NCBI RefSeq assembly: GCF_037392515.1
Contig: NC_090288.1
Coordinates: forward strand, 4,333,501 to 4,397,500
Source: Haliotis asinina
Lineage: Eukaryota > Mollusca > Gastropoda > Lepetellida > Haliotidae
Reading direction: 5' to 3'
DNA length: 64,000 nt
Below the pieces are notes generated by a model that ran no database searches, was not told where the DNA came from, and worked only from the letters and a program-made list of their open reading frames with translations. Made by a program: the position numbers and the translations under genes. Positions 3,415-64,000 of this stretch are shown piece after piece; the stretch's first letter is position 1; every line of letters starts with the position of its first letter.

Positions 3415-6060
3415 GGAAGTCGCATGAATCAATGAAGCCATGCACCCAGAATACGCAAATGAGTACACAGGCTCAGATGATGATGGTATTTCGTGTCTCG
3501 AGAAAAAGATACTTCACATTATGTCAGACTTCGGAGATGGTGTTAAATTTATAATTATTGATGATTTTAATGCACGGACTGCTGAAGAGCCAGATGTTAT
3601 TTCACATTCTGATACACAACATTTGCCGCTCCAGGAAGACTTTAGAGACGACAGTTTTGACATGAAAAGAGTATCATGTGATAAACAAACAAATAATTTT
3701 GGTAGAAGTCTTCTCAACTTGTGCAAAGTTTTCAGCCTTCATATTACCAATAGAAGGAACCCATGTGATAAACTTGGTAATTTCCCATGTATCACCCATT
3801 CTGGAGCCAACGTCGTTGACTATGTACTGGTATCGAGTGAATGTTTTACTAGAATTCACGACATTATTGCAATACCGAGATCAGAGTCTGATCATCTCCC
3901 TATATCATGTCATCTTAGTGACGTCATCAAGCTTATGACAAGCCATGCTGCGCCTAGTATACCCTTCTTGAAAGTGGCAAGATATATTTACAGCAATAGT
4001 GATAGACAACATTTCACTGATGTGTATACTTCTGACAAAGTGATCTGGATGATCTCGGAATTCCTAGAGTATTTAGATGGTGATATTAACTGTACAGTCA
4101 CCAAACTGTCTAATATTTTTGCTGCTACAGGGAGACAACTCAGACTGACCGTCTTTGATGTGCGAACGACTCTCAAACAACCACCCTGGTTTGATAACGA
4201 TTGCCAACAACTAAGAACCAATAAATATAGATGCTTTCACAGATTTAGGAAAATCAACTGTGACGAATATCGAAGGAAGCACTTAGAATCAAAAAGAGCC
4301 TTAAAAAGTTATGCTGTCTCAAGAAAACTGAATTTGATAAGAAAGAAGCAGACGAGATGGCCTATAAATCAAAACATGGAAATTGCAAAGCATTTTGGAA
4401 AATGATAAAACAAGCATTTCGCACAAGTAATGACTCATGGATTCCAGCCCAGGACTGGCACTGTTACTTTAGGAATCCTAAATTATCTCTGTCTTTGATG
4501 AACATGTTAAATACTTTCTTGAACACCACTCGTGCCAAGACTGTGATGGGTAAGCTAGCCAGGACATCTATCTCGATGAGGAAATTTCCGAAACAGAAAT
4601 CAAAAATGCAATTTCTAAACTGAAAATGGGAAAGCAACTGCTACAGATAGGGTACCTCCGGAAGTTTACAAACTATCATCGGAACTTATAATCCCATATG
4701 TGAGGCTGTTATTTAATAAGGTCCTAGATGAGGGTATGTTCCCATTACTATGGTATATTGGAATGATTTTGCCTGTATTTAAGTCCGGAGATAATCAAAT
4801 TACAGAGGAATTTCCCTACTAAATATCATGAGAAAAGTCTTTACAACAATAATCGAGTCACGACTTAGAAAATGGATTGAAGTTAACGAATGTATATCTG
4901 AATGTCAAGCCAGATTTTGTCCACAATATTCTACTACAGGGCATTTATTTACACCACAGGCATTGTTCCAAATATTTGGGTAAAACAAAAGATCATTCCT
5001 GTTGGTGGATTCATTGACTTAAAAAAGCATTTGACTTTGTAGACAGAGATAAATTATTATATGTGCTCGTGCAACGTCGATGTCATGGAAAGTTATTTAT
5101 CTTACTCAAAAATATGTACCATCAGTGAAGGCTTGTGTTAAAGTTGGTAATTCAAGTAGCTTTTGATACCTCCCGTGAAGTAAGACAAGGATGTATCTTA
5201 AGTCCCGTACTCTTTATTCTGTTTATTAATGAATTTGTACATGTCTTGTATATGTCTTTTAACAGTGGAGTGTTCGTTACTCAGGATATACGAGATCTAC
5301 TGCTACTAATGTTTGCCGACGTATCATCGTATTTCAAAATGGTGGAATTCTGACAAAATCGGAGAGATGGTTGTTCGGTAATTAGCCTATGCATTTTGTT
5401 ACTTACTATAAATATCTTGGAATTGTGTTTGACGATTTTGGGCAAAATTATTTGGGTGTCAAGTGTGAGATCTATTTCACTGAGAAATGGTTTTTCACAT
5501 GTATGGCTAAACCAAAGTGTTGGCGATGTACAGTTATTCATCCTAACCTCCGAACAACGCATCAAAGATATAGTCTACAAGAACTGGCATATAGACGTTT
5601 GCAGCTCAACATTTCTAAAACACTATTCACAATTCAAATACGACCTTCATTTGGAACCGTATATCACTGAATTAAAAAAAAAACAAATACCCAATACGTG
5701 CACACTGCAAATTCCGAATTAAAAGTGTCAGTGATACTGAACGTATTACACCTATTAAAATAGAATGTATTTGCACTGGAAAATGCACAATGCACACACA
5801 CGAACGTACACACACAGATACCTACCTACCTACCTACATACATGCATACATACATGCATATATACATGCACGCAGGCACGCACGCACGCACATACATACA
5901 TACATACATACATACATACATACATACATACATACATACATACATACATACATACATACATACATACATACATACAGCCAGCCTAATTCCATTTTTATGA
6001 AGAGATATTCGCGTATGCGAAACATGCTCTAAATTATTTGGTAAAGAATTTTAAACCACA
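3415..6060 (+). mobile_element. Decayed non-LTR retrotransposon (LINE), EN and RT pieces
   Basis: The longest frame (3440-4405) carries the C-terminal half of an AP endonuclease: IIIDDFNART and, later, SDHLPIS, which contains the catalytic-type SDH. Further on, in shifting frames, come the reverse transcriptase blocks NYRGISLLN, FIDLKKAFDFVDR, REVRQGCILSPVLF and a catalytic-loop remnant FADV where FADD is expected. A post-RT block with KYLGIVFDDFG follows. The 5' end is truncated, since the start of the endonuclease is missing. At least three frame changes separate the blocks and one catalytic Asp has become Val, so the copy is dead. Related sequence may resume after the TACA repeat at 5820-5976, up to about 6060. 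I cannot place the clade by eye. Confidence 0.88.
5820..5976. repeat. (TACA)n microsatellite inside LINE remnant
   Basis: A long run of TACA units, with CCTA and GCAC variants at its left end, lies in the 3' part of the LINE. The threonine/histidine/tyrosine-rich frames across it are repeat products. Confidence 0.97.
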
Positions 6061-17689: not shown

Positions 17690-18510
17690 ACGTCGGCATG
17701 CCACATGAGCGTGTGTGTCCACGTAAATCCCACGAGTGCGTGTGTATCCATGTTTTCCTGTGTGTGGGTCTGTGTCTAAGTATTTCCTACAGGAGCGTGT
17801 AGGTCTGAATATATTCTTCATTTGCGTGTGTTCCAAGTTTTCTGCACGTGCGCTTGTATGTCCAGTTATATTCTGTAGGTGCGAGTGCGTCTAAGTATAC
17901 TCTATAGGTGAATGTATGTCTAAGTATACTCTATAGGTGAATGTATGTCTAAGTATACTCTATAGGTGAATGTATGTCTAAGTATACTCTATAGGTGAAT
18001 GTATGCCTAAGTATACTCTATAGGAGAATGTATGTCTAAGTATACTCTATAGGTGAATGTATGTCTAAGTATACTCTATAGGTGAATGTATGTCTAAGTA
18101 TACTGTATGTCTAAGTATACTTTATAGGTGAATGTATGTCTAAGTATACTCTATAGGTGAATGTATGTCTAAGTATACTCTATAGGTGAATGTATGGCTA
18201 AGTATACTCTATAGGTGAATGTATGGCTAAGTATACTCTATAGGTGAATGTATGTCTAAGTATACTCTATAGGTGAATGTATGTCTAAGTATACTCTATA
18301 GGTGAATGTATGTCTAAGTATACTCTATAGGTGAATGTATGTCTAAGTATACTCTATAGGAGAATGTATTTCTAAGTATACTCTATAGGTGAATGTATGT
18401 CTAAGTATACTCCATAGGAGAATGTATGTCTAAGTATAACCTGCAAGTACGTGTATGTCTAAGTATATTCCACATGTAAATGTATGTCTACCCAACACGC
18501 ATGTATTGTA
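17690..18510. repeat. 29-bp minisatellite
   Basis: The unit is TCTAAGTATACTCTATAGG plus TGAATGTATG. About 19 near-identical units lie at 17880-18440, with degenerate units outside. No unique spacers separate the units, so it is not a CRISPR. The same TAAGTATA core is found in degenerate arrays at 30540-30845 and 32165-32440. The right edge lies about 30 bases from the Tc1/mariner element at 18543. Confidence 0.96.
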
Positions 18511-18568: not shown

Positions 18569-18735
18569 GTTTCATCTTACTTTGAGCTATCCTAACACCT
18601 CAACCGATTCACTGATACTTAAAACTAAGTAATGGTGTAAGGGAGGTAACTCATCTTGGCCTACTGAGTATAGTACAATTAGAGTTACCTCCCCTGAATC
18701 TGTAGCAGACGTCATTTTCCTCAGCACTGTCAACA

Positions 18736-19716
18736 ATGTCTGCTGAAGATAAAAGAAGGTTGATTTTTGAGTTGTGTAATCAAGGAATTGATGATGTAAA
18801 TACATTGGCAGAGAGAACAGGAACTCCTCTTTCTACTGTGTATAGGATTAGGAAGAATTTTAAAGAGGGAAAGGATTTTGGGCACCAGAAAGGAGCAAGG
18901 AGACCAAGAAAATTGGACTTCTCAGATCGCGTCCGGCTGAGAATTTTAGCGTCTAAAAAGCAAAGGGCAAGCATCTCCAACATCAGGTATGAAATGATAG
19001 AAAGGGGATCAACAGTTGTATCAAAATCTACAGTTAGAAGAAATTTGATTGATCTTGGATGGGAGAAAAAGACTGGAATTACTTCTCCTCTCATGAAACA
19101 AGAACATAAAGACAGGCGTGTTGAGTGGTGTTTGGCACATGAAAACTTTGACTGGGAAAATGTGATTTTTACTGATGAAAGCTCAATATGGGTATATCCC
19201 AATAATGTGAAAATATGGACAAAGTCTGCGTCAGCACCGTTGTATCGACGACCTAAATACAGCCCAAAGTTTCATGTATGGGGAGGGATATCCTTATTAG
19301 GAACGACTCCGCTGTGTGTGTTTGAGGGAAATCTGACAAGTCAACGCTACACTAACATATTAGATAATTTTCTCCTTCCAAGTGCACATGTGGTTTATGG
19401 AAATGACTGGATTTTGCAGCAAGATAATGATCCTAAACACACCGCAAAACATGCCAAGCAGTGGTTTCAGGAGAAAAATGTGACTGCATTACCATTTCCT
19501 GCATATAGTCCTGACTTAAATCCCATTGACAACATTTGGGGGATGATGAAGGAATGTGTGAATCAAAAGGGGTTGACAAAAATTGAAGACATGAAGAGAG
19601 AAGTGGTCCGATACTGGGACAGCATAACTCACGAGACACTAACCTCTCTGATAGGAAGTATGCCTACCCGTCTTAGACTGTGCCGTGAAGCTCAAGGAGA
19701 CTTGATAAAATATTAA
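18736..19716 (+). CDS. Tc1/mariner transposase, 326 residues, DD34D
   Basis: This enzyme would cut the transposon out by its inverted repeats and insert it at TA. The N-terminal 110 residues look like paired helix-turn-helix DNA-binding domains (IDDVNTLAERTGTPLSTVYR, then SISNIRYEMIERG with SKSTVRRNL). The RNase-H-like catalytic core follows, with IFTDES (D147), LQQDNDPKHTA (D230) and SPDLNPIDNIW (D265). The spacing D230 to D265 is 34 residues, giving DD34D; Tc1 proteins with this DNDPKHT and PDLNPI context usually carry Glu at the third position. The ATG sits 193 bases inside the left end, no stop interrupts the frame, and 326 residues is close to the usual length. It may encode an active enzyme, which sequence alone cannot show. 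Confidence 0.96.
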   Translation: MSAEDKRRLIFELCNQGIDDVNTLAERTGTPLSTVYRIRKNFKEGKDFGHQKGARRPRKLDFSDRVRLRILASKKQRASISNIRYEMIERGSTVVSKSTVRRNLIDLGWEKKTGITSPLMKQEHKDRRVEWCLAHENFDWENVIFTDESSIWVYPNNVKIWTKSASAPLYRRPKYSPKFHVWGGISLLGTTPLCVFEGNLTSQRYTNILDNFLLPSAHVVYGNDWILQQDNDPKHTAKHAKQWFQEKNVTALPFPAYSPDLNPIDNIWGMMKECVNQKGLTKIEDMKREVVRYWDSITHETLTSLIGSMPTRLRLCREAQGDLIKY

Positions 19717-43297: not shown

Positions 43298-44781
43298 AGA
43301 TGACGAAACGAGAGTTTAGATACCATCTGGCTAACGGTTATTTCAAATAATCTGATGAGGGAAGGAAACAAAGATATGCCATTAAACTACGAGTTGTTAA
43401 ATCAATAGTACATACCAGACACGGATCATTGTAACATCTTTCTTACACACCCAACGGATCACCCCCTTTCCGATGTATCCTTTGTCAATAGATCACAATG
43501 GCATAGTACATAAATGACTCACTACTTAATACTTGAGGTGATCCTCCGCAAAACCTTTCCACAATATAAATATTGAATCAATAATCCACAATATATGCAT
43601 CAATCAATCGTTTATTCAGAAGTATAGGTAATTTCTAATTACATATTTTTCTAGCTTAACAGGTGTGTTATTATCTACATATTTTCTTGTTTGATGGGGA
43701 TAGTCTTCCTTGCAATATTTACTTTAGAACCGTGTGCAGATATTCTACATTTACCTCGACTCGGTGTTTTTCAGCATGTTTGTGTAGAATTTTGGCTATA
43801 GAGGGGATATATCCAAAGCCTTGAAATGAGCTGGATATGCTGAGATAAATTTTAACATGCCATGTTTGAGCAGTTTCGACATTGAAGTAGTCCGTCAAAA
43901 TGTCTCCCTGGGGTCAGTATCATGAAGTAACCAACCACGAAGCTCACACCCGAACTTATAGGTTTTGTCAAACTCGAACTTACAGTTACTTCGTACCTAC
44001 AACTTTACATAAGCCCCTAAAACTTCGACACAAAAATGTTTGACGGTGTATATGTTTGATAAACGTCTTACTAAATTTGCCCCCCCCCCCCCCCCCCCCA
44101 CCACCACCACCACCTTAAAGCTTGAGTAGATTTTTAAACTCTTCCACTAAAGGTGAAATAATGCATTTAATATCCAATATACAGAAACTTAACTCCTTCT
44201 CGACTAAACATCGTTCACACATTACGATCCAACAACTATTATCTTATTTGCTTCACATGATATTATTGCATAATCCAAATTCCATCGACGAGACGCATGG
44301 TTCAAAGCGACGTAATTGGCTGGTCCTAAGAGAATTTGTAGAATACGTTGGTTGAATGCGGGACTCCGGTCAGCTCGACAGTATTTATCGTCGCAAAGAC
44401 TCATCAAGACGCAAACACTTCCTTGTAAGGTGATTATCACAAGATTTCTTTACAGTTCATATAAAAAATTAAAAGTCAGGTCAAATGACACTGAGCTAAA
44501 CTGTCAAAATTATCTGTAAATGTCTCTTAAACATCATTTGGCTTGTTTACCTCTCGTATTTATCACAGTGTGCTCTAGTTGGTGGTGGGAGATATGTGCT
44601 GGAGCTATAAGTAAGAAGTGGTATCAAAATGTTCCAGTTATCGCCAAGAAGTTACTGAGCAATCAGGATAAAAGTTTGACTGTAACATCAGTGATCCTTG
44701 TCTAGTTAATGAACCAAGAACTATCTACTTCACTATATCCGGTCTTATGCTATTTGCTCCTACACACCAGTACCCCCAAGT
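43298..44781. other. Upstream of USP gene 1; no gene recognised
   Basis: It contains a poly-C run (44080-44099) followed by CCA units to 44113. No TATA box or other promoter element for the USP gene could be assigned with confidence. Confidence 0.5.
44080..44113. repeat. (C)n(CCA)n simple repeat
   Basis: Twenty C residues, then CCA units. Confidence 0.97.
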
Positions 44782-45448
44782 ATGAACAAGATTGAAGCAT
44801 GCAGTGTAATTAAGTTTATTGCACTTAAAGGGCTGCACTTCCTGATGAGATGAAATCTGTTTATGGTGATGATAGCCCATCCCATAACACTACTGAGCGA
44901 TGGAAACGGAATTTCCAGACCGGTCACATGTCTCTCACAGATGAGCCAAGACGTTGACGCCTCTCTGACTGATGATATGGACACCGTGAACAAAGTCGAG
45001 GCACGTGGTTATGCATGAGACCGACTTGAGTTATGGGTCTTCATTCATAACTAACTGTACATGTCCAAAGTGTCAGCATGCTGGGTTTCCTCGTTTACTG
45101 ACTCCTCTTACAAGACAGACTCCACGGAACATGTCACGACAGGCATTGGTGCTTCTGGAGCAGGATAAGGAGGATTTCTTCAATCTTGTAACATTGGGTC
45201 TATTTGAATGTTACAAATGTGAATGATACGTCGTTTTGATGACACAAATGGGGTCATTCAAGGGGTGGATGGTTGGTTTGTGAAGTCAGGGGACTTCTAT
45301 CTAGCCGTTCTGTGCAAAAAACGGCGGGAGAAATGTGTAACTCGGGATGGTGGCTATGTAGCGATGGCATAAGAACACGAAAGCAAAATAAAGTTTCTAC
45401 TCTGAATGAGCCTTTTTGATAATTAAAACTTTTTGATATCTCCTCGTA
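44782..45448 (+). pseudogene. Mariner transposon relic, core deleted
   Basis: The frame starts MNKIEACSVIKFIALKG and, after one frame change, continues DEMKSVYGDDSPSHNTTERW, FQTGHMSLTDEPR and DDMDTVNKVEARG, the mariner N-terminal helix-turn-helix. It then reads GFPRLLTPLTRQ and ALVLLEQDKEDFF, the stretch before the first catalytic Asp, and jumps to the C-terminal end GWFVKSGDFYLAVLCKKR and REKCVTRDGGYVA. The catalytic middle, including all three acidic residues, is missing. At 45424-45448 the complement of the sequence reads TACGAGGAGATATCAAAAAG, resembling a mariner inverted end; no left end found. It is a long-dead copy from a family different from the other two Tc1/mariner pieces here. Confidence 0.85.
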
Positions 45449-45599
45449 TGTCGACCCATCCATCATTAACACGGGTGCGATGAGGGCATGTTTGACGTTT
45501 CCGGATTTATGAAAGAATGGACGAAAACGACACTTTCGCTCTAGAAATATTCATTAAAAGCGACGAAGCCCTTTGCATAATCATAGACTTGGTTTCAGT

Positions 45600-45785
45600 A
45601 ACACGTTTGTCGTAAGAGGCAGCTAAAGGGATCGGTGGTCACACTCGCTGACTTGGTTGACACATGCCATCGGTTCCCATTTGCGTAGATGGATGCTCAT
45701 GCTGTTGATCACAAGACTGTCAGGTTCAGACTCGATTATATACACACCGCCGCCATTGCTGAGTGCGTCATAAAACTAAACTCAC
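45600..45785 (+). repeat. SINE family B
   Basis: GTCGTAAGAGGCAGCTAAAG, GACTTGGTTGACACATGCC, GATGCTCATGCTGTTGATCA, CAGACTCGATTATATACAC and AAAACTAAACTCACT in family order, with a short deletion near the 3' end. Confidence 0.9.
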
Positions 45786-46030
45786 TTTGCATAATCACAA
45801 GACATCGCTACTGAAAGCAGGGTGGACTGCAAAATGACAAAGTCGACAATGTCTCAGTCAAATAGCTGTGAGAATATTACACTATTATGCGTGAAACTGT
45901 AAACTAGCAGTACACCGTAGGAAAGACGATATCTCAACAAAGCAGCGATCACACATAAGAGAATCCAACTTCGTTCACGACCACATGTAGTTTCTGATCG
46001 CATCGTACGGTCGTACAGAGCTTTTTAGGA

Positions 46031-46038
46031 TATAAATA
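46031..46038 (+). promoter_or_regulatory. TATA box upstream of helicase-like gene
   Basis: TATAAATA lies 260 bases before the ATG at 46299. A start site about 30 bases downstream would put a small upstream frame (ATG at 46072, ten codons including stop) in the leader. The leader also carries a near-repeat of CATCAGCGACACAC. The position is plausible but no transcript data support it. Confidence 0.4.
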
Positions 46039-46298
46039 GCGCATCGTACTATAGTTAGCTCCAAGTCGACTATGGCGGTGTGTGTACATAATCACCCTTG
46101 ACTACGGTATCGATTGCGACACCGTACTGTTAACGTTTGTCAACGAGCGTGTTGCGTTCGGCGTACATAGGTTACATATAGTGAGAGACAGTGCTGTAGA
46201 CGTGTTTTCGTGTTTGGACACCATCAGCGACACACACGCGTTAAGCACGCATCACCGACTCACACATCAAGTAAGCATCAGCGACACACGCATGTGAC

Positions 46299-47483
46299 AT
46301 GGACATGAGTGAGAAAACAGTCAGTCCTGATGAGAAGTATGTGGAAGGCTTTGGTTATAAGGTCGGGACAAGGAATAGGAAACGAACAAGGCATGTTGAG
46401 AGGTCGAGAGGTAGAGATCATAAGAGAAGTGGACCTAACCTTGACGATCGTCACCGACGTAGACGAATAGATAGAAGTCACAGAAGAGGAGGAGATAGAA
46501 GTCGCAGCAGGAACGGACACAAACGCAGAGAAGAATTCAATTCCTCATCTGACGATAAGGAAAGTGAGGTGAGAAGTACATGTACGGTCCATACAAAACG
46601 CGAAGATGACCACTCGAACAAACCTGAGGAAAATTCGAAACTTGAATCATCATCACTTGATGATCACGTTGAAATTATGCAGAGGGATGATCGTCACTGG
46701 GCCGAGAAATCTATGGATGAAATGACCCAAAGAGATTGGTTTATCCTAAAATCGGATCATAATATCAGGTGCAAAGGTGAACGTGTTCCTCATCCTTTGA
46801 GATCATGGAATGACCTCACAGTTCCTAGTTTTATAAGGGAGGTAATGGACAAAAGCGGGTACAAAAAACCCACTCCCATTCAGATGCAAACAATTCCTAT
46901 AGCTCTACAAACCAGGGATGTTATCGGTGTTGCTGGAGCCGGAAGCGGCAAAACAGTCGCATATCTTGTTCCTCTTTTCGCACGTATTCACGGATTGCCA
47001 AAATGCCAAATGATGAAAAAAGCGACCAAAGTTCCTGATGCTGTTATTCTTACACCAACACGCCAGGTGGCTCAACAGGTCAAGGAGGAATGTGACAAGT
47101 TTGGCGAAGCAAGTGGCATCCGAACAGTCACAGTCATCGGAGGTGTAAATTTTAAGGAGCAAACCAAGAAGCTAGCTTCGGGCTTCGAGATTATTGTGGC
47201 CACCCCTGGTCGACTCCTTGATGTTCTAGAGAAAGGTATCCTTGGTCTCAACGAGAGGACCTGTGTTGTGATGGATGAAGTTGATGTTATGATAGAACTT
47301 GGCTTTGAACCTTTTTTATGTAAAATCCTTGATACATTACCAGAAAGGCCAGAGACAGAAGGTGTAGAAGAGGATGCGGAGAAGTACCACCAGACAGTCA
47401 TATTCACGTCTACCATCTCACCTACCTTGGAGCGTCTCGCGCGTACATTCCTTCATGATCCCTGTGTGGTACAGGTTATTTGA
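46299..47483 (+). CDS. Intronless DDX23/PRP28-like DEAD-box helicase copy, RecA1 domain only, 394 residues
   Basis: Residues 1-100 are Arg/Ser/Asp-rich, like the RS domain of the U5 snRNP helicase DDX23. Residues 133-170 (HWAEKSMDEMTQRDWFI..HPLRSW) and the RecA1 domain follow DDX23 closely: Q motif GYKKPTPIQ (187-195), Walker A AGAGSGKT (212-219), PTRQVAQQ (253-260), TPGR (302-305), DEVD (326-329) and TST (370-372). Known DDX23 has ETGSGKT, PTRELAQQ and DEAD at these places. The changed Ia and II motifs suggest lost or altered ATPase activity. The frame stops at VVQVI just where RecA2 should begin; a 15-bp minisatellite and then a RecA2 tail remnant follow. Animal DDX23 genes have many introns, and this copy has none across 1.2 kb, so it looks retroposed. 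That the frame is still open suggests recent origin or constraint. It could be a translated half-helicase or a young pseudogene. Confidence 0.85.
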   Translation: MDMSEKTVSPDEKYVEGFGYKVGTRNRKRTRHVERSRGRDHKRSGPNLDDRHRRRRIDRSHRRGGDRSRSRNGHKRREEFNSSSDDKESEVRSTCTVHTKREDDHSNKPEENSKLESSSLDDHVEIMQRDDRHWAEKSMDEMTQRDWFILKSDHNIRCKGERVPHPLRSWNDLTVPSFIREVMDKSGYKKPTPIQMQTIPIALQTRDVIGVAGAGSGKTVAYLVPLFARIHGLPKCQMMKKATKVPDAVILTPTRQVAQQVKEECDKFGEASGIRTVTVIGGVNFKEQTKKLASGFEIIVATPGRLLDVLEKGILGLNERTCVVMDEVDVMIELGFEPFLCKILDTLPERPETEGVEEDAEKYHQTVIFTSTISPTLERLARTFLHDPCVVQVI

Positions 47484-47484
47484 A

Positions 47485-47739
47485 ATCACATCCAGCATCA
47501 TCACATCCTGCACGATCACATCCAGCATGGTCACATCCTGCATCATCATACTCAACATTATCACACCCAGCATGATCAAATCATGCATGATTACATCCAT
47601 CGTTGTCACATCCTGCATGGTCACATCCTGCATTGTCACACCCAGCATGATCACATCCTGCATGATCAAATCCAGCACGGGAACACCCAGCATGATCACC
47701 GCCAACATGATCACATCCTGCATGATCACATCCTACATG
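47485..47739. repeat. 15-bp minisatellite inside the helicase copy, 17 units
   Basis: The unit is ATCACATCCTGCATG with substitutions. Seventeen units fill exactly 255 bases, so one overlapping frame (47374-48027) stays open through it as pentapeptides such as VTSCM. It occupies the place where about 130-150 residues of RecA2 would be encoded. Confidence 0.93.
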
Positions 47740-47775
47740 AAGGAGAGTTCCACATTGGTCAAAACGGATATTTCA

Positions 47776-48027
47776 GGTAAAGATATCAACATATCTAAAG
47801 TGTCAAGGACTATTGGTGAAAACGTAATTCGTTTTGTTCGGGCAGGTCTTGGAGGTAAAAGCAGTGTTACAATTTCCTTCCTGACGGATGAAGCTCATCA
47901 TCTGTTCTATATGCTGATGCAGATGTTCCTTGCTATATCTTGTTCTGCCAAATTGTCTAATCACCTGCTGCCCACAACAATCTTGCATGGTAGATTAACA
48001 GTAAGAAACCTGAACACTAATAATTGA
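47776..48027 (+). pseudogene. C-terminal RecA2 remnant of the DDX23-like copy
   Basis: The frame GKDINISKVSRTIGENVIRF, VRAGLGGKSSVTISFLTDEA and HHLFYMLMQMFL aligns with the end of DDX23 (known pattern: NIEDYIHRIGRTGRAGKSG, then VAITFLT and a VFYELKQ helix). Motif VI, HRIGRTGR in the family, has become IRFVRAGL, so the arginine finger region is not conserved. The block just before it is shortened. This frame differs from that of the 394-residue N-terminal part. The obvious GT (47475) and AG (47776) pair would not join the two in the right frame. Confidence 0.8.
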
Positions 48028-48899
48028 CGTTGACGATATAATCTGAGATATAAATGTAGTGGAATTGTGGTGGAAAATGAAACACGTCAATTGAGATTTG
48101 TTTGCGCGATTATGATTATTATGCACAGAGAGAGACTCACAGAGAGACACATACAATGTATACACACACATAAATACACATACAAGTGCACACACATGCA
48201 TCAATGTATAGATGCATGTATACATACATGCATAAACCCTCCGCGTTGTTCACGCACGCATGACGCAGCCTTTCATGGCGTAGCGACTGACGATATCTTG
48301 AAGCATTCATAAAAGAACACAGATTCCGTTGTCACAAACATCATTGACCGACGCCATCTCTTGAACATACAGTTACGTCAACTATGCCTCAACTATTTTG
48401 TCAACTAATAACTCCAGACAGCTGCACTATTTGTAATGAGAGGTGATGCACTAGGTATTTGCCCTGGATCAGAAAGTTAGACCAAGTCTTTCGTCCGCTT
48501 TCAGCAACGTTCCAGCAACAACAGGATTCGACGAAATAGGCTTTGCTCCCATGAACGATGCCACCATAAAGGGATAAGAAACATAGTACTCAAATCGAGA
48601 GGTGACATGCAATCAAAAACAAGCCAGATATCTAACATCAACTGTTCAGAAAAGCCGGATAACATTTTAAGCATATTTGACGAATGTGACATTCAAACAA
48701 ATACCCAAACCTCGCACTGACGAACTCGGACATACAATAATCCCAGTATCGGTCAGCAAGTACACTTTTGGTTAGCGTCCATTACATATTCGACGCTTCC
48801 AAACTTAGTTTAGTTGTGTAGCTGTTATTAGTTAGTTGTTATCGCTTGACATTGCACTAAGAATGACAGTATTCGGGGGTCTACGCATTACTCGTCAGT
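48028..48899. other. No gene recognised
   Basis: Short CA/TGCATA-rich tract at about 48130-48235. No poly(A) tail of the helicase copy could be located. Confidence 0.5.
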
Positions 48900-49020
48900 A
48901 ACCAATGGCTGACGGGGTCAGGTGGTCAGGCTGGCTGACTTGGTTAACACATGTTATCGTATCCCAGTTGCATAGATTGATGCTCATGTTGTTGGTCATT
49001 GGATCCTCTGGTCGAAATGT
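48900..49020 (+). repeat. SINE family B fragment
   Basis: GGTCAGGCTGGCTGACTTGG, TTAACACATGTTATCGTATC and GATGCTCATGTTGTTGGTCA; truncated at both ends. Confidence 0.85.
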
Positions 49021-49524
49021 GTCAAGGCGTTACTTGGAAGAGATATCCGGTTGTGATCACTAACAAAACAAATTCCCGATGCAATATTCTCCTAGGAATT
49101 ACATCACGTTTTGACTTTCACGTGAACATATGACTTGCTTGTCCATGCATTTGTGATGAGTGCAGCAGATGATTCCGGGTACGCTCATATTGTCTGGTGT
49201 CTTTTAACAGTGGTCCAAGTTCATGATCACGTCGGGTTCTTACAAATCTGTCAGATGAGTCTAAATTAAGTAGATATCTTGTGAATATAGAAAGACATGT
49301 GTCGTATTATTTCCACAGACATTAGAGGGAGAACATCAGAGAACAAACAAGGGGTTGAATGTAGACGTGAAGATAGGAACTACGAGATCAAATACCGGTG
49401 TAGCGTTCACAAACACGAACACTTAAGTTGTTCCGTATGGTAAGGTTACACCACAATGAATCACCAAGCCACAGGATACTGGTTCTTCAGTGTCATTTCA
49501 GTTTGTCTTCCTCGTGTGTGAGGG

Positions 49525-49650
49525 ACGGTGGAATAGCCTCATGGTTAAAGCGTTCGCTCGTCGCGCCGAATGTCCGAGTTCGATTCCCCATATGGGTGCA
49601 ATGTGTAAAGCCCATTTCTGATTACCCCGACGTGAATAGAAAAATTATTG
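49525..49650 (+). repeat. tRNA-like SINE (family A), 5' part
   Basis: TGGTTAAAGCGTTCGCTCG (A box), GAGTTCGATTCCCC (B box) and GGGTGCAATGTGTAAAGCCC. The 3' tail is replaced by unrelated AT-rich sequence. Confidence 0.9.
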
Positions 49651-49950
49651 GAAAAAAGCTGCATAATACTATTGTTACTGCCTCCTTGCTTGTGACAATA
49701 CGAGCGCCATTATGTAAAATGAATTAAGACTGATTGAATACAACATGTGTTTCTTTCAAGTAGTTTAAAGTGCTTAAAGTATTACTTAGACCACTTCATG
49801 TCGTTGCTTCCGGGCATAGATGGTTTCGACCTTACTTGTTCATACATTTTTCCAAAAGAGACTAGATATCGATATCGGGACACTGCTTTTAGATGATCAT
49901 ATAATCTCCTTTAATGGTGTAACTATGTTGGCAGTTTCCTCAAGGCACAG

Positions 49951-50075
49951 ACACCGTTTTCTCCAGGAACAGAGGTCGTTTTCTCCAAGTTCGTGGGCCG
50001 TTTTCTCCAACGCGGTGACCGTTTTCTCGAGTTTTGTGGGGTCCGTTTTCCCTCAGGTCCGTTTTCTCTGTATTC
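49951..50075. repeat. Tandem repeat with CCGTTTTCTCC core, about six copies
   Basis: The core recurs at 20-25 base spacing with variable linkers. Confidence 0.8.
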
Positions 50076-60958: not shown

Positions 60959-63418
60959 TCATTCAATCATGTTAACTGTAGTAATAGATTCACGTAGTCT
61001 GTTCCAGAATACAACGCTGCCATACACGTCGGTATTGTACTCCAAGTAACAGTTGTTGGACAACATCACTGCCATGTCCTTGGGGAGATGCTTCATGTCA
61101 ACATGCTGATAAAGCACAACCAGCACGATGTTCTGTCTTCTTGAGATCCCCTCCATCCGGGCCATGTTGTACTCAAACTCACACCAGTGACTCTTCAGGA
61201 AAGAAGGAGACAAAACGATCAAGGTCTTGCGGCTATTCTGGATCGCGTTAACGATGTTGGACGCAATTACTTCCCCCGGAAGAAAATCCCGATGATGGAT
61301 GCACAATCGAAGTCCTCCTTTGTCTTCCAGTTCCGATATCATACTCTCGATAACGAGGCATCTGTCTGTGTCTGCATATGACACAAAAGCATCATACTGA
61401 TACTCTAGGTCATCTTGGTCAGACGTCTCCAGTTCCCGATATTTTCTTCTCCCAACAAAGTACAGGTATTTCAGTTTCCATCTGTGTCGATACCCTGCCC
61501 CTAACCCTATCCCGACCATTGTCACTAACAGACTGGACACTGTCAGGGCAGAAGTAATAACATTTGAGCTGCATCCTTTTTCTAAACCTGTTATTATAGA
61601 CTCCAGATTTCTAAAGCTGTTGACCATCCCATTTTTAGAAAGACACGTCAGTGATTCCATGTCCTCAACTTTATCAGCGATTTTGTTCATCCACCGGAGT
61701 GATTCCAGCGATGAGCACATGCATCTGAAAGGGTTTCCTCTCAGACGGATTGAAACATTTGACAGTTTGTCCAGTTCTTCTAGAGTCTTGACTGGCATTT
61801 CGAGAAGTTGGTTATGACTTAAATCAAATAATTTTAGATGTGACAAGTGTTTGAGTTGAGCAGCAGTTGTTCTTATGATGTTATTATTAATTCTGAGAAA
61901 TTGTATGTTTGTTAGATTTCTAAAGAGAGCCTCTGGTAAGTAACTGATTCTGTTTTGAGATATATCTAGATCTGTCAAATTCACAATGTAACTGAAAATA
62001 TCACCCTTTTCATCAGAAGCTATAACATTTCCGAGAAAGTTGTTTGAAAGGTTGAGATGTGTCAGACTATTGTTAACATTAAAGAAACGTGAGTGAAACC
62101 ATTCCATTATGTTGTCAGAGAAATCAAAATGTTCAACTTTTTCAAAACCAATAACAACACCTGTAACAGAAGAAATCAAATTACCATTTAGAGAAATGGC
62201 CCTCAAATCGTTTTTCTTCACTTTAGCCCCCATTAAAACCATTCTTAAACAACAGAATGACACTTTCAGTACTTGAAGGTTTGGTGGAAAATTGAATGTA
62301 GCGATCCCATTCCCTTTCTGTAGTGTTTTCTGGTTTGAGATATCTAGAACTCGAAGTGCCTTTAGTTGTGTCATTTCAGACAAGTATGGGCCATTATAAA
62401 ACCTGTTCCATCGGGCCGACAACACCTCTAGAGTTTCGGGTAAATTTAACATGGTTCCTTTTTCGAAATCAATGACTCCATTGCCAGAAATGTCAAGTTC
62501 ACGCAGTGAGGTATTCTTTAGATGCACAAAATCGTTTACCCGCAGTTGATAACAGGATAGGGATAATTTAGTTATATGGTTCATTTTCAGAATTTGTATT
62601 GTAGAATCACGTAGGCCATACGTTGCTTTAACGAATTCAGGAAATCCTAAATCCCAATTTTCTGATATATCAATTGTATGGATACGGTAAAAAGGTGAAA
62701 ATGTTGAAGGTACGATTTCTCTGATTTGACAGTAGGACATGTACAGATATTCCACATGGGGTACATTTAGAAAAGTTGAGTTTTGCAAGGTCAGTTTGCA
62801 GTAGTTGGTATATGGGGTGAAGGCGAGAAGAGAGAGTTTCTTAAGTTTGGCAAATCCTGGTCCAAAGTCTGCCGGACGCCCATCAACGTAAAGATGAGTA
62901 AGTTCTGCTAGATACCGAAAGGCTGCGTCAGGATATGTTGCAGGGCCACTGTCATCTCCAGGCCATGCTGTCAGCTGATTGAACTGGATGTTAAGAACCT
63001 GAAGTTTATGTAGAGGCTTGAACAGATTTGTTTTGTAGGTTTTTGGATCCAGCTTTAGATCATTGCCTTTTAGGCTTAGGGTGACAAGGTTGTTAAGACC
63101 ATAAAAAGCCAGTTCATGCAGGGTGTTGAGGTTGTTTCTTTCAAGATATAGACTTTGGAGATTTCTCATTGTTGAAAATACCTTTGGGCCTATTGTTGTT
63201 ATGCTGTTGCCATCGAGACAAAGCACTGTGGCTGATGTTGGTAAACCCCATGGAACCTGTGTAAGATTTAAGTTTGAACAGTTCACGTATACCCGGTGGT
63301 GGCCGATGGTACAAGTACAAGGGGAACAACTCTGACCAGAAATCATTGCTACCAGCGGGATGTTGAAAATACATGTAAATATCAGCTTTGAAGGTTGTAG
63401 ATTCGCCATTCTCAACAT
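60959..63418 (-). CDS. Toll-like receptor, single exon, 819 residues
   Basis: A membrane pattern-recognition receptor that would signal through TIR adaptors to NF-kB. Residues 1-28 form a signal peptide (hydrophobic KLIFTCIFNIPLVAMISG). A Cys-rich N-terminal cap (CSPCTC) follows, then about 20 leucine-rich repeats with LxxLxLxxNxL spacing. One C-terminal Cys cap (NPFRCMC to GLEKGC) directly precedes a membrane segment at about 620-643. The single Cys cap makes this the vertebrate-like rather than the Drosophila Toll-like type. The TIR domain spans about 673-815: box 1 YDAFVSYA, box 2 with RDFLPG (BB-loop Pro at 714) and box 3 FWNRLR (804 onward). All are intact and no stop interrupts the frame. 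An acceptor-like TTTTCTTTCAG ends at 63486 on this strand, 68 bases before the ATG, so a 5' untranslated exon may lie outside. The ligand cannot be told from sequence. Confidence 0.96.
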   Translation of the reverse strand: MLRMANLQPSKLIFTCIFNIPLVAMISGQSCSPCTCTIGHHRVYVNCSNLNLTQVPWGLPTSATVLCLDGNSITTIGPKVFSTMRNLQSLYLERNNLNTLHELAFYGLNNLVTLSLKGNDLKLDPKTYKTNLFKPLHKLQVLNIQFNQLTAWPGDDSGPATYPDAAFRYLAELTHLYVDGRPADFGPGFAKLKKLSLLAFTPYTNYCKLTLQNSTFLNVPHVEYLYMSYCQIREIVPSTFSPFYRIHTIDISENWDLGFPEFVKATYGLRDSTIQILKMNHITKLSLSCYQLRVNDFVHLKNTSLRELDISGNGVIDFEKGTMLNLPETLEVLSARWNRFYNGPYLSEMTQLKALRVLDISNQKTLQKGNGIATFNFPPNLQVLKVSFCCLRMVLMGAKVKKNDLRAISLNGNLISSVTGVVIGFEKVEHFDFSDNIMEWFHSRFFNVNNSLTHLNLSNNFLGNVIASDEKGDIFSYIVNLTDLDISQNRISYLPEALFRNLTNIQFLRINNNIIRTTAAQLKHLSHLKLFDLSHNQLLEMPVKTLEELDKLSNVSIRLRGNPFRCMCSSLESLRWMNKIADKVEDMESLTCLSKNGMVNSFRNLESIITGLEKGCSSNVITSALTVSSLLVTMVGIGLGAGYRHRWKLKYLYFVGRRKYRELETSDQDDLEYQYDAFVSYADTDRCLVIESMISELEDKGGLRLCIHHRDFLPGEVIASNIVNAIQNSRKTLIVLSPSFLKSHWCEFEYNMARMEGISRRQNIVLVVLYQHVDMKHLPKDMAVMLSNNCYLEYNTDVYGSVVFWNRLRESITTVNMIE

Positions 63419-63486
63419 GCTCAGTTGAATATGTTCGGCATATGATCGAGACCGAATATTCTTTGGTGTAGTCGTCTTACTATTTC

Positions 63487-64000
63487 TGAAAGAAAAATAT
63501 TTTTTGTATTGAGGATTTTGAAACAGATGTAACCAGGTAGTTTCTGTACTTGTTACTGCCAGGGAACAGCGAACATATTAGCTATTGAAAAGGTAAAGCT
63601 GAATAACAGTCACAATTATGATGATATATCAACACGTTTGTACGGAATGGCGTGAGTGATTGAAGATTTGTTGAAGGCGTTTTCAAAGCATATTGTTATG
63701 GTTTTGCCCAAGGACCATAAAAGTTGGTCAAATGTTGTTCGGTAACCAGTAACGGATCTTTGTAATACAAAAGGCGAATTACTAATATTATCCAACTTGA
63801 CTGAGTCACTACACATAGAAAGAAGTTTGCCATGTCATTCTCTCTTGTCTGAATAGGATATTGAGTCAGGAAACACAGAGATGGCATAGATGTACTTCAT
63901 TGCAGTTTTGCAAGAGAACCAACGGCATACTCAGCAATATGCAAGTGATTCTAGAGAAAGGGAACCTATGATTTGACTGTAACGGTGAGATGTGCATTTA
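63487..64000. other. Upstream of the Toll-like receptor; probable 5' intron or promoter
   Basis: No coding sequence recognised. The splice-acceptor-like tract at its left edge makes at least the first part likely to be an intron. Confidence 0.4.

Follow-up and report, generated by a model that had tools for sequence, protein, structure and literature searches.

A DDX23-derived open frame whose RecA1 domain appears to be maintained by selection beside a degenerate RecA2 region

We describe a partial copy of DDX23 whose RecA1 domain appears to have been maintained by selection, most simply after the loss of RecA2; a low dN/dS, the absence of stop codons and the sparing of conserved sites all point in this direction. 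The copy lies in the window, a stretch of 64,000 nucleotides on contig C9 (4333501-4397500) of an assembly of 1.14 Gb in 159 contigs, and its elements follow one another in the order RS-like part, RecA1, stop, an array of 17 units of 15 bp and a damaged, out-of-frame RecA2 tail. The reading to which we give about an even chance is that DDX23 would have been duplicated within the animal's own lineage, that the PRP8-anchoring segment and the larger part of RecA2 would then have disappeared from the copy, and that a short RS-RecA1 protein would afterwards have been retained by selection.

Results

The open frame (window positions 46299-47483, plus strand) encodes 394 amino acids followed by TGA and combines an RS-like N-terminus with a DDX23-type RecA1 domain. 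Pfam DEAD (PF00270) matched residues 192-379 (E 1.7e-36) and human DDX23 was the top PDB match (residues 128-392, E 5e-86), in agreement with the DDX23-like RS and RecA1 frame of 394 residues described in the original prediction. The frame also ends where predicted, with the TGA at 47481 closing it at the RecA1/RecA2 border. The proposal of a half-helicase derived from DDX23 was likewise supported, as RecA1 is closest to PRP28 and the RecA2 motifs are lost or damaged. The AlphaFold model of the copy (two sequences) was only moderate (mean pLDDT 65, pTM 0.69) and predicts strands alternating with helices, as a RecA fold should. Immediately 5' of the start codon, a 26-bp tandem repeat of 2.7 copies occupies positions 46222-46293.

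RecA1 with its N-terminal extension (aa 130-392; 46686-47474, plus strand, two in-frame gaps) is 64% identical (167/262) to the other DDX23 of the assembly, located on contig C10, and 54% identical (141/262) to human DDX23. It carries the motifs Q, I, Ia, Ib, II and III in a form nearest to PRP28, with alterations. Motif Q reads GYKKPTPIQ at aa 187. Motif I (AGAGSGKT, aa 212, 46932-46955; AETGSGKT in C10 DDX23) retains GSGKT and has the conserved T214 replaced by A. As predicted, motif Ia is changed, reading PTRQVAQQ (aa 253, 47055-47078) instead of PTRELAQQ through replacement of EL by QV, and motif II is DEVD (aa 326, 47274-47285; DEAD in C10 DDX23) through replacement of A by V. Motif III is FTSTI (aa 369, 47403-47417; FTATM in C10 DDX23), with A replaced by S; all these motifs lie on the plus strand. 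With VIGG at aa 279 and TPGR at aa 302, the residues GSGKT, DE-D, PTR, GG and TPGR are retained.

The N-terminus (46299-46679, plus strand) is charged and RS-rich, as in DDX23/PRP28, with 9 RS/SR dipeptides vs 23 in C10 DDX23. Its start, ATGGACATGAGTGAG, agrees with the C10 DDX23 start at 13 of 15 bases. Alignment of the RS part with the C10 RS region gave a score of 103 (shuffle mean 72) that was attained by 3/1000 shuffles, hence the resemblance goes beyond composition; tblastn found the RS match at E 2.9e-8 with the composition filter off. The putative TATA box reported upstream (TATAAATA, 46031-46038, plus strand) is indeed present, 268 bp upstream of the frame, but carries no weight as a candidate core promoter, because about 0.3 TATAAA are expected by chance in 400 bp; as evidence for a gene it was dropped.

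Unforeseen in the original prediction, the copy also lacks some 200 residues between its RS part and its RecA1, and the C10 stretch that begins at about residue 110-120 and ends at 325 has no counterpart there. This stretch includes the PRP8-anchor segment of C10 DDX23, which we take to be the equivalent of human PRP28 aa 273-327. The anchor piece (C10 246-297) scored 19 against copy residues 1-127, below the shuffle mean of 23.5, and its score against the six frames of 45501-46700 was reached by 0.13-0.98 of 300 shuffles. For the wider C10 segment 120-325 against the same six frames the fraction was 0.02-0.96, with the minimum in one plus-strand frame of the six. One study describes aa 273-327 of human PRP28 as remaining on PRP8 (PMC11208138). 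With the PRP8-binding segment not found in the copy, the suggested role of a U5 snRNP decoy lost its support, and a decoy competing for the U5/PRP8 seat through the anchor segment would be unlikely. The copy may contact U5/PRP8 through RecA1.

Downstream of the stop, exactly 17 units of a 15-bp repeat were confirmed at 47485-47739 (mean pairwise identity 0.75). A related 15-bp array of 18.3 copies was found at C6:47284036-47284283 and another, with a 30-bp double unit in 21.6 copies, at C6:13848284-13848532; thus the array is one of this genome's ordinary minisatellites. The idea that RecA2 was replaced by a minisatellite as a special event is not borne out by these kindred arrays, and the similar repeats elsewhere rule out the array as a RecA2 remnant. 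Moreover, changes in the repeat-unit columns were not enriched at third positions in either open frame; nothing thus points to evolution of the array as protein, and we rejected it as coding sequence. The stretch from VV to motif V is of similar length in the copy (289 nt) and in C10 DDX23 (276 nt).

The degenerate RecA2 tail (47755-47964, plus strand, frame +1 relative to RecA1) is open and runs from motif V to near the C-terminus with an 8-aa gap. It matched human DDX23 from motif V onward (E 3.4e-6) and, free of stops, was 44% identical to C10 DDX23 over residues 689-771, or 40% for the window 47755-47964. Of the RecA2 motifs IV, V and VI of DDX23/PRP28, motif IV was not found in the copy, motif V is damaged (TDISGKDIN vs TDVAGRGID) and motif VI is lost (RFVRAGLG vs RIGRTGR), the last two lying out of frame; the tail had been predicted as recognisable, in another frame and impaired in motif VI, and it proved to be so.

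For RecA1 compared with C10 DDX23 over 263 codons, dN was 0.25, dS 1.32 and dN/dS 0.186 (bootstrap 0.08-0.30, 60 resamples). A dN/dS of 0.5 was rejected with 2 delta lnL of 27 (267 codons), and of 42 and 40 in two joint fits. A simulated neutral copy beside a parent with synonymous change only gave a mean dN/dS of 0.44-0.47 (about 0.45 expected), and 0/160 neutral simulations were as low as the observed value (minimum 0.252), a threshold that presumes equal mutation rates at the copy and C10 loci. The dN/dS of RecA1, proposed at the outset as a check on decay, is therefore near neither 1 nor the neutral-copy expectation. The count of stop codons does without the equal-rate assumption: in simulations decaying to a protein identity of 0.65 (observed 0.64), neutral decay predicts 5.1 stops in RecA1 and left none in 6/1000 runs, and 10.3 are predicted at half the estimated dS, vs 0 observed. 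Furthermore, among 249 gap-free RecA1 columns aligned across four PRP28 proteins (C10, human, 5dtu and yeast PRP28), 23/103 invariant sites were changed in the copy vs 69/146 of the others (Fisher p 6e-5), a difference attained by 0/1000 neutral simulations. RecA1 is altered too, since motifs I, Ia, II and III hold 5 of the 23 changed invariant sites and, across six sliding windows, dN/dS peaked at 0.40 near motif II (aa 290-355) and ranged from 0.08 to 0.26 in the others.

The tail behaves differently. Its dN/dS was 0.43 over 84 codons and 0.35 over 92 codons anchored better at motif V (interval 0.06-0.61). Joint fits with a common dS gave 0.17 for RecA1 vs 0.44 for the 92 tail codons (p 1.7e-8), and 0.17 vs 0.34 for the 73-codon tail core (p 4e-4); the tail tolerated a fixed value of 0.5 (2 delta lnL 0.37, and 3.2 with the core), which RecA1 did not. 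Among positions where C10, human and 5dtu agree, 44/148 were changed in RecA1 vs 21/42 in the tail (p 0.017). Constraint on the RecA2 tail is weaker than on RecA1. Hence RecA1 resembles a functional duplicate, an open frame under purifying selection (dN/dS 0.19, no stops), and does not show the neutral evolution of a processed pseudogene, with which the tail is compatible. Between the two outcomes originally offered, a decaying copy or a retained RecA1, the dN/dS, the stops and the site classes favour the latter.

A lesser, still substantial possibility is a divergent duplicate that was long active as a longer protein (RecA1 with some RecA2) and was recently broken by a shift and the stop at 47481, which would make it a young pseudogene. 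Consistent with this, the tail matches DDX23 in one frame throughout, with no stop in 98 codons and no internal frame change (neutral probability of no stop 0.02-0.18, simulated over 92 codons), and a single frame change separates it from RecA1. Within the tail, invariant sites were changed at 21/42 positions vs 14/20 of the others, the same direction as in RecA1 and not significant (p 0.18). The stop-free frame, the wide dN/dS interval and this like-directed contrast suggest that the tail loss may be younger than argued; a highly diverged tail with an intact frame fits poorly with long neutrality, and the intact frame is hard to square fully with a relaxed tail. In addition, no AATAAA or ATTAAA was found in 47481-49000, only variants (such as TATAAA at 48049, downstream of the stop), a weak counterpoint because C10 DDX23 itself shows a lone ATTAAA within 1 kb downstream of its stop. 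On the other hand, the dN of the tail is about 2.6 times that of RecA1 (0.64 vs 0.25) and neither motif V nor motif VI survives, which indicates that the two halves have long been under different constraint. A late joint death of both halves cannot yield the extra tail changes, because RecA1 would then carry stops and has none. The array, with no third-position excess, likewise speaks against a recently active longer protein.

It is improbable, in our judgement, that the frame still continues into the RecA2 tail, whether by splicing out of the repeat, a +1 frameshift at the TGA or a one-base assembly error at 47475-47484. Between 47368 and 48027 the tail frame contains no stop, which takes it across the entire array and into overlap with the RecA1 end, and CAGGTTATT at 47472 looks by eye like a weak splice donor. 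However, the array lacks the appearance of coding sequence, and even such a product would have neither motif IV nor a proper motif VI.

The other DDX23 locus (C10:6782236-6784617, minus strand; L019:3234-5618 (-)) encodes 794 aa in one exon with intact motifs. A genome search with the copy as query, all 37 candidates of which were scored, and a second search with 57/221 candidates scored found no multi-exon DDX23 in the 1.14-Gb assembly. The 37 matches of the second search were the two DDX23 loci, one window tail and 34 exon-sized pieces of at most 72% identity; four pieces within about 9 kb on C5 resemble a normal multi-exon DEAD-box gene. The multi-exon parent that had been assumed did not materialise, the sole other DDX23 found being a single exon. 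The copy is intronless, as predicted; that trait is no mark of retroposition, since C10 DDX23 shares it and has no parental introns for the copy to have lost, and the term retrocopy rested solely on the absence of introns. Retroposition is a possible origin. No A-runs or T-runs of at least 7 were found in 46001-49000, and the copy is too old for a poly(A) remnant or a target-site duplication to be expected. Comparison of 44001-50000 with L019 found, besides the coding sequence, nothing more than short recurrent pieces, presumably a dispersed repeat, and weak or chance-level matches, and bases 45950-46700 have a single genome match, namely themselves; a duplication of the DNA segment along with its flanks was ruled out on these grounds. 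Human DDX23 is multi-exon. In the present assembly C10 DDX23 is a single exon while the DEAD-box gene on C5 looks split into several, and C10 DDX23 may in turn be an intronless gene that took the place of the ancestral one.

When changes were polarised with human DDX23, 262 RecA1 columns held 70 copy-only and 0 C10-only changes, 26 common to copy and C10, and 25 differing in all three; 71 tail columns held 30 copy-only, 3 C10-only and 3 shared changes. Counts so lopsided place nearly all protein change on the copy branch and argue for a duplication within the animal's own lineage, clearly in RecA1 and equivocally in the tail taken alone. The copy-branch dN/dS would be about 0.37 if dS is split evenly. 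A plain processed pseudogene, neutral from birth, would account for an intronless, truncated frame with damaged motifs and a minisatellite interruption, and is very improbable, as the dN/dS, the stops, the site classes and the simulations exclude it for RecA1 (presuming that C10 DDX23 is the closest relative of the copy and that mutation rates at the two loci do not differ strongly) and the only other DDX23 found is likewise intronless.

The window holds further features. A Toll-like-receptor-type open frame of 872 aa (60959-63577, minus strand) carries leucine-rich repeats together with a TIR domain. A Tc1/mariner-type DDE transposase frame of 336 aa lies at 18706-19716 (plus strand), with DDE_3 above the cut-off and a Tc3-type HTH just below it, and a 29-bp satellite (17889-18490) is located upstream. 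A LINE-type endonuclease domain (Pfam Exo_endo_phos_2) occurs in a frame at 3428-4405 (plus strand).

Discussion

A short RS-RecA1 protein retained after duplication would imply that the frame of 394 aa is translated today and that RecA1 has stayed under selection since the loss of RecA2. Lacking RecA2, with motifs IV-VI and the arginine finger, such a protein would form no closed helicase core and would not unwind RNA. RecA1 would still offer GSGKT and DE(V)D for nucleotide binding and PTR, GG and TPGR for RNA contact, so that, with RecA2 gone and these motifs kept, the product would be a non-enzymatic binding module. Its RecA1 would most likely contact whatever RNA or U1-side partners PRP28 RecA1 contacts, and it could temper full-length DDX23, perhaps in a single tissue, the germ line for example. 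We tentatively propose a RecA1-only DEAD-box derivative, kept under selection long after the loss of RecA2 and of the PRP8 tether, that might bind RNA or U1-side surfaces without unwinding and modulate the 5' splice-site handover by DDX23.

DEAD-box proteins are regarded as machines built from two domains. If the proposal is true, a natural, selected RecA1-only product would show that half of such a machine has a use of its own, and it would provide a tool to probe what the RecA1 of PRP28 binds while the 5' splice site is transferred. A dead locus would still be instructive, as an example of rates that tell the maintenance of one domain from the relaxation of the other. Among the papers screened by title and abstract start, none dealt with a DDX23 retrogene, an intronless DDX23 or a mollusc PRP28 paralog; by title, no natural RecA1-only protein appeared among the matches listed, and by title or abstract start no precedent was found in the literature on DEAD-box retrogenes, intronless helicases and abalone retrogenes.

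The copy resembles DDX23/PRP28 (U5-100K) in its RecA1 with the N-terminal extension DDRHW...RDW, in the RS-like N-terminus and in the matching start. It differs in having no working RecA2 or PRP8-anchor segment, in the DEVD, in the altered motifs Ia and III and in a much faster protein evolution. The DEAD-box helicases DDX21 and DDX50 also have DEVD as motif II, a likeness to the copy for which our literature and PDB searches returned no support; they belong to another subfamily, in which both RecA domains are present. A DEVD shared with DDX21 and DDX50 would mean that this motif need not by itself abolish ATPase activity. RBMXL2 is a functional splicing-factor retrogene, and its deletion is reported in one study to block spermatogenesis (PMC6345566). 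Unlike RBMXL2, to which the retrogene origin and the knockout phenotype belong, the copy is known from the genome sequence; like RBMXL2, it appears to be a retained duplicate of an RNA-processing gene.
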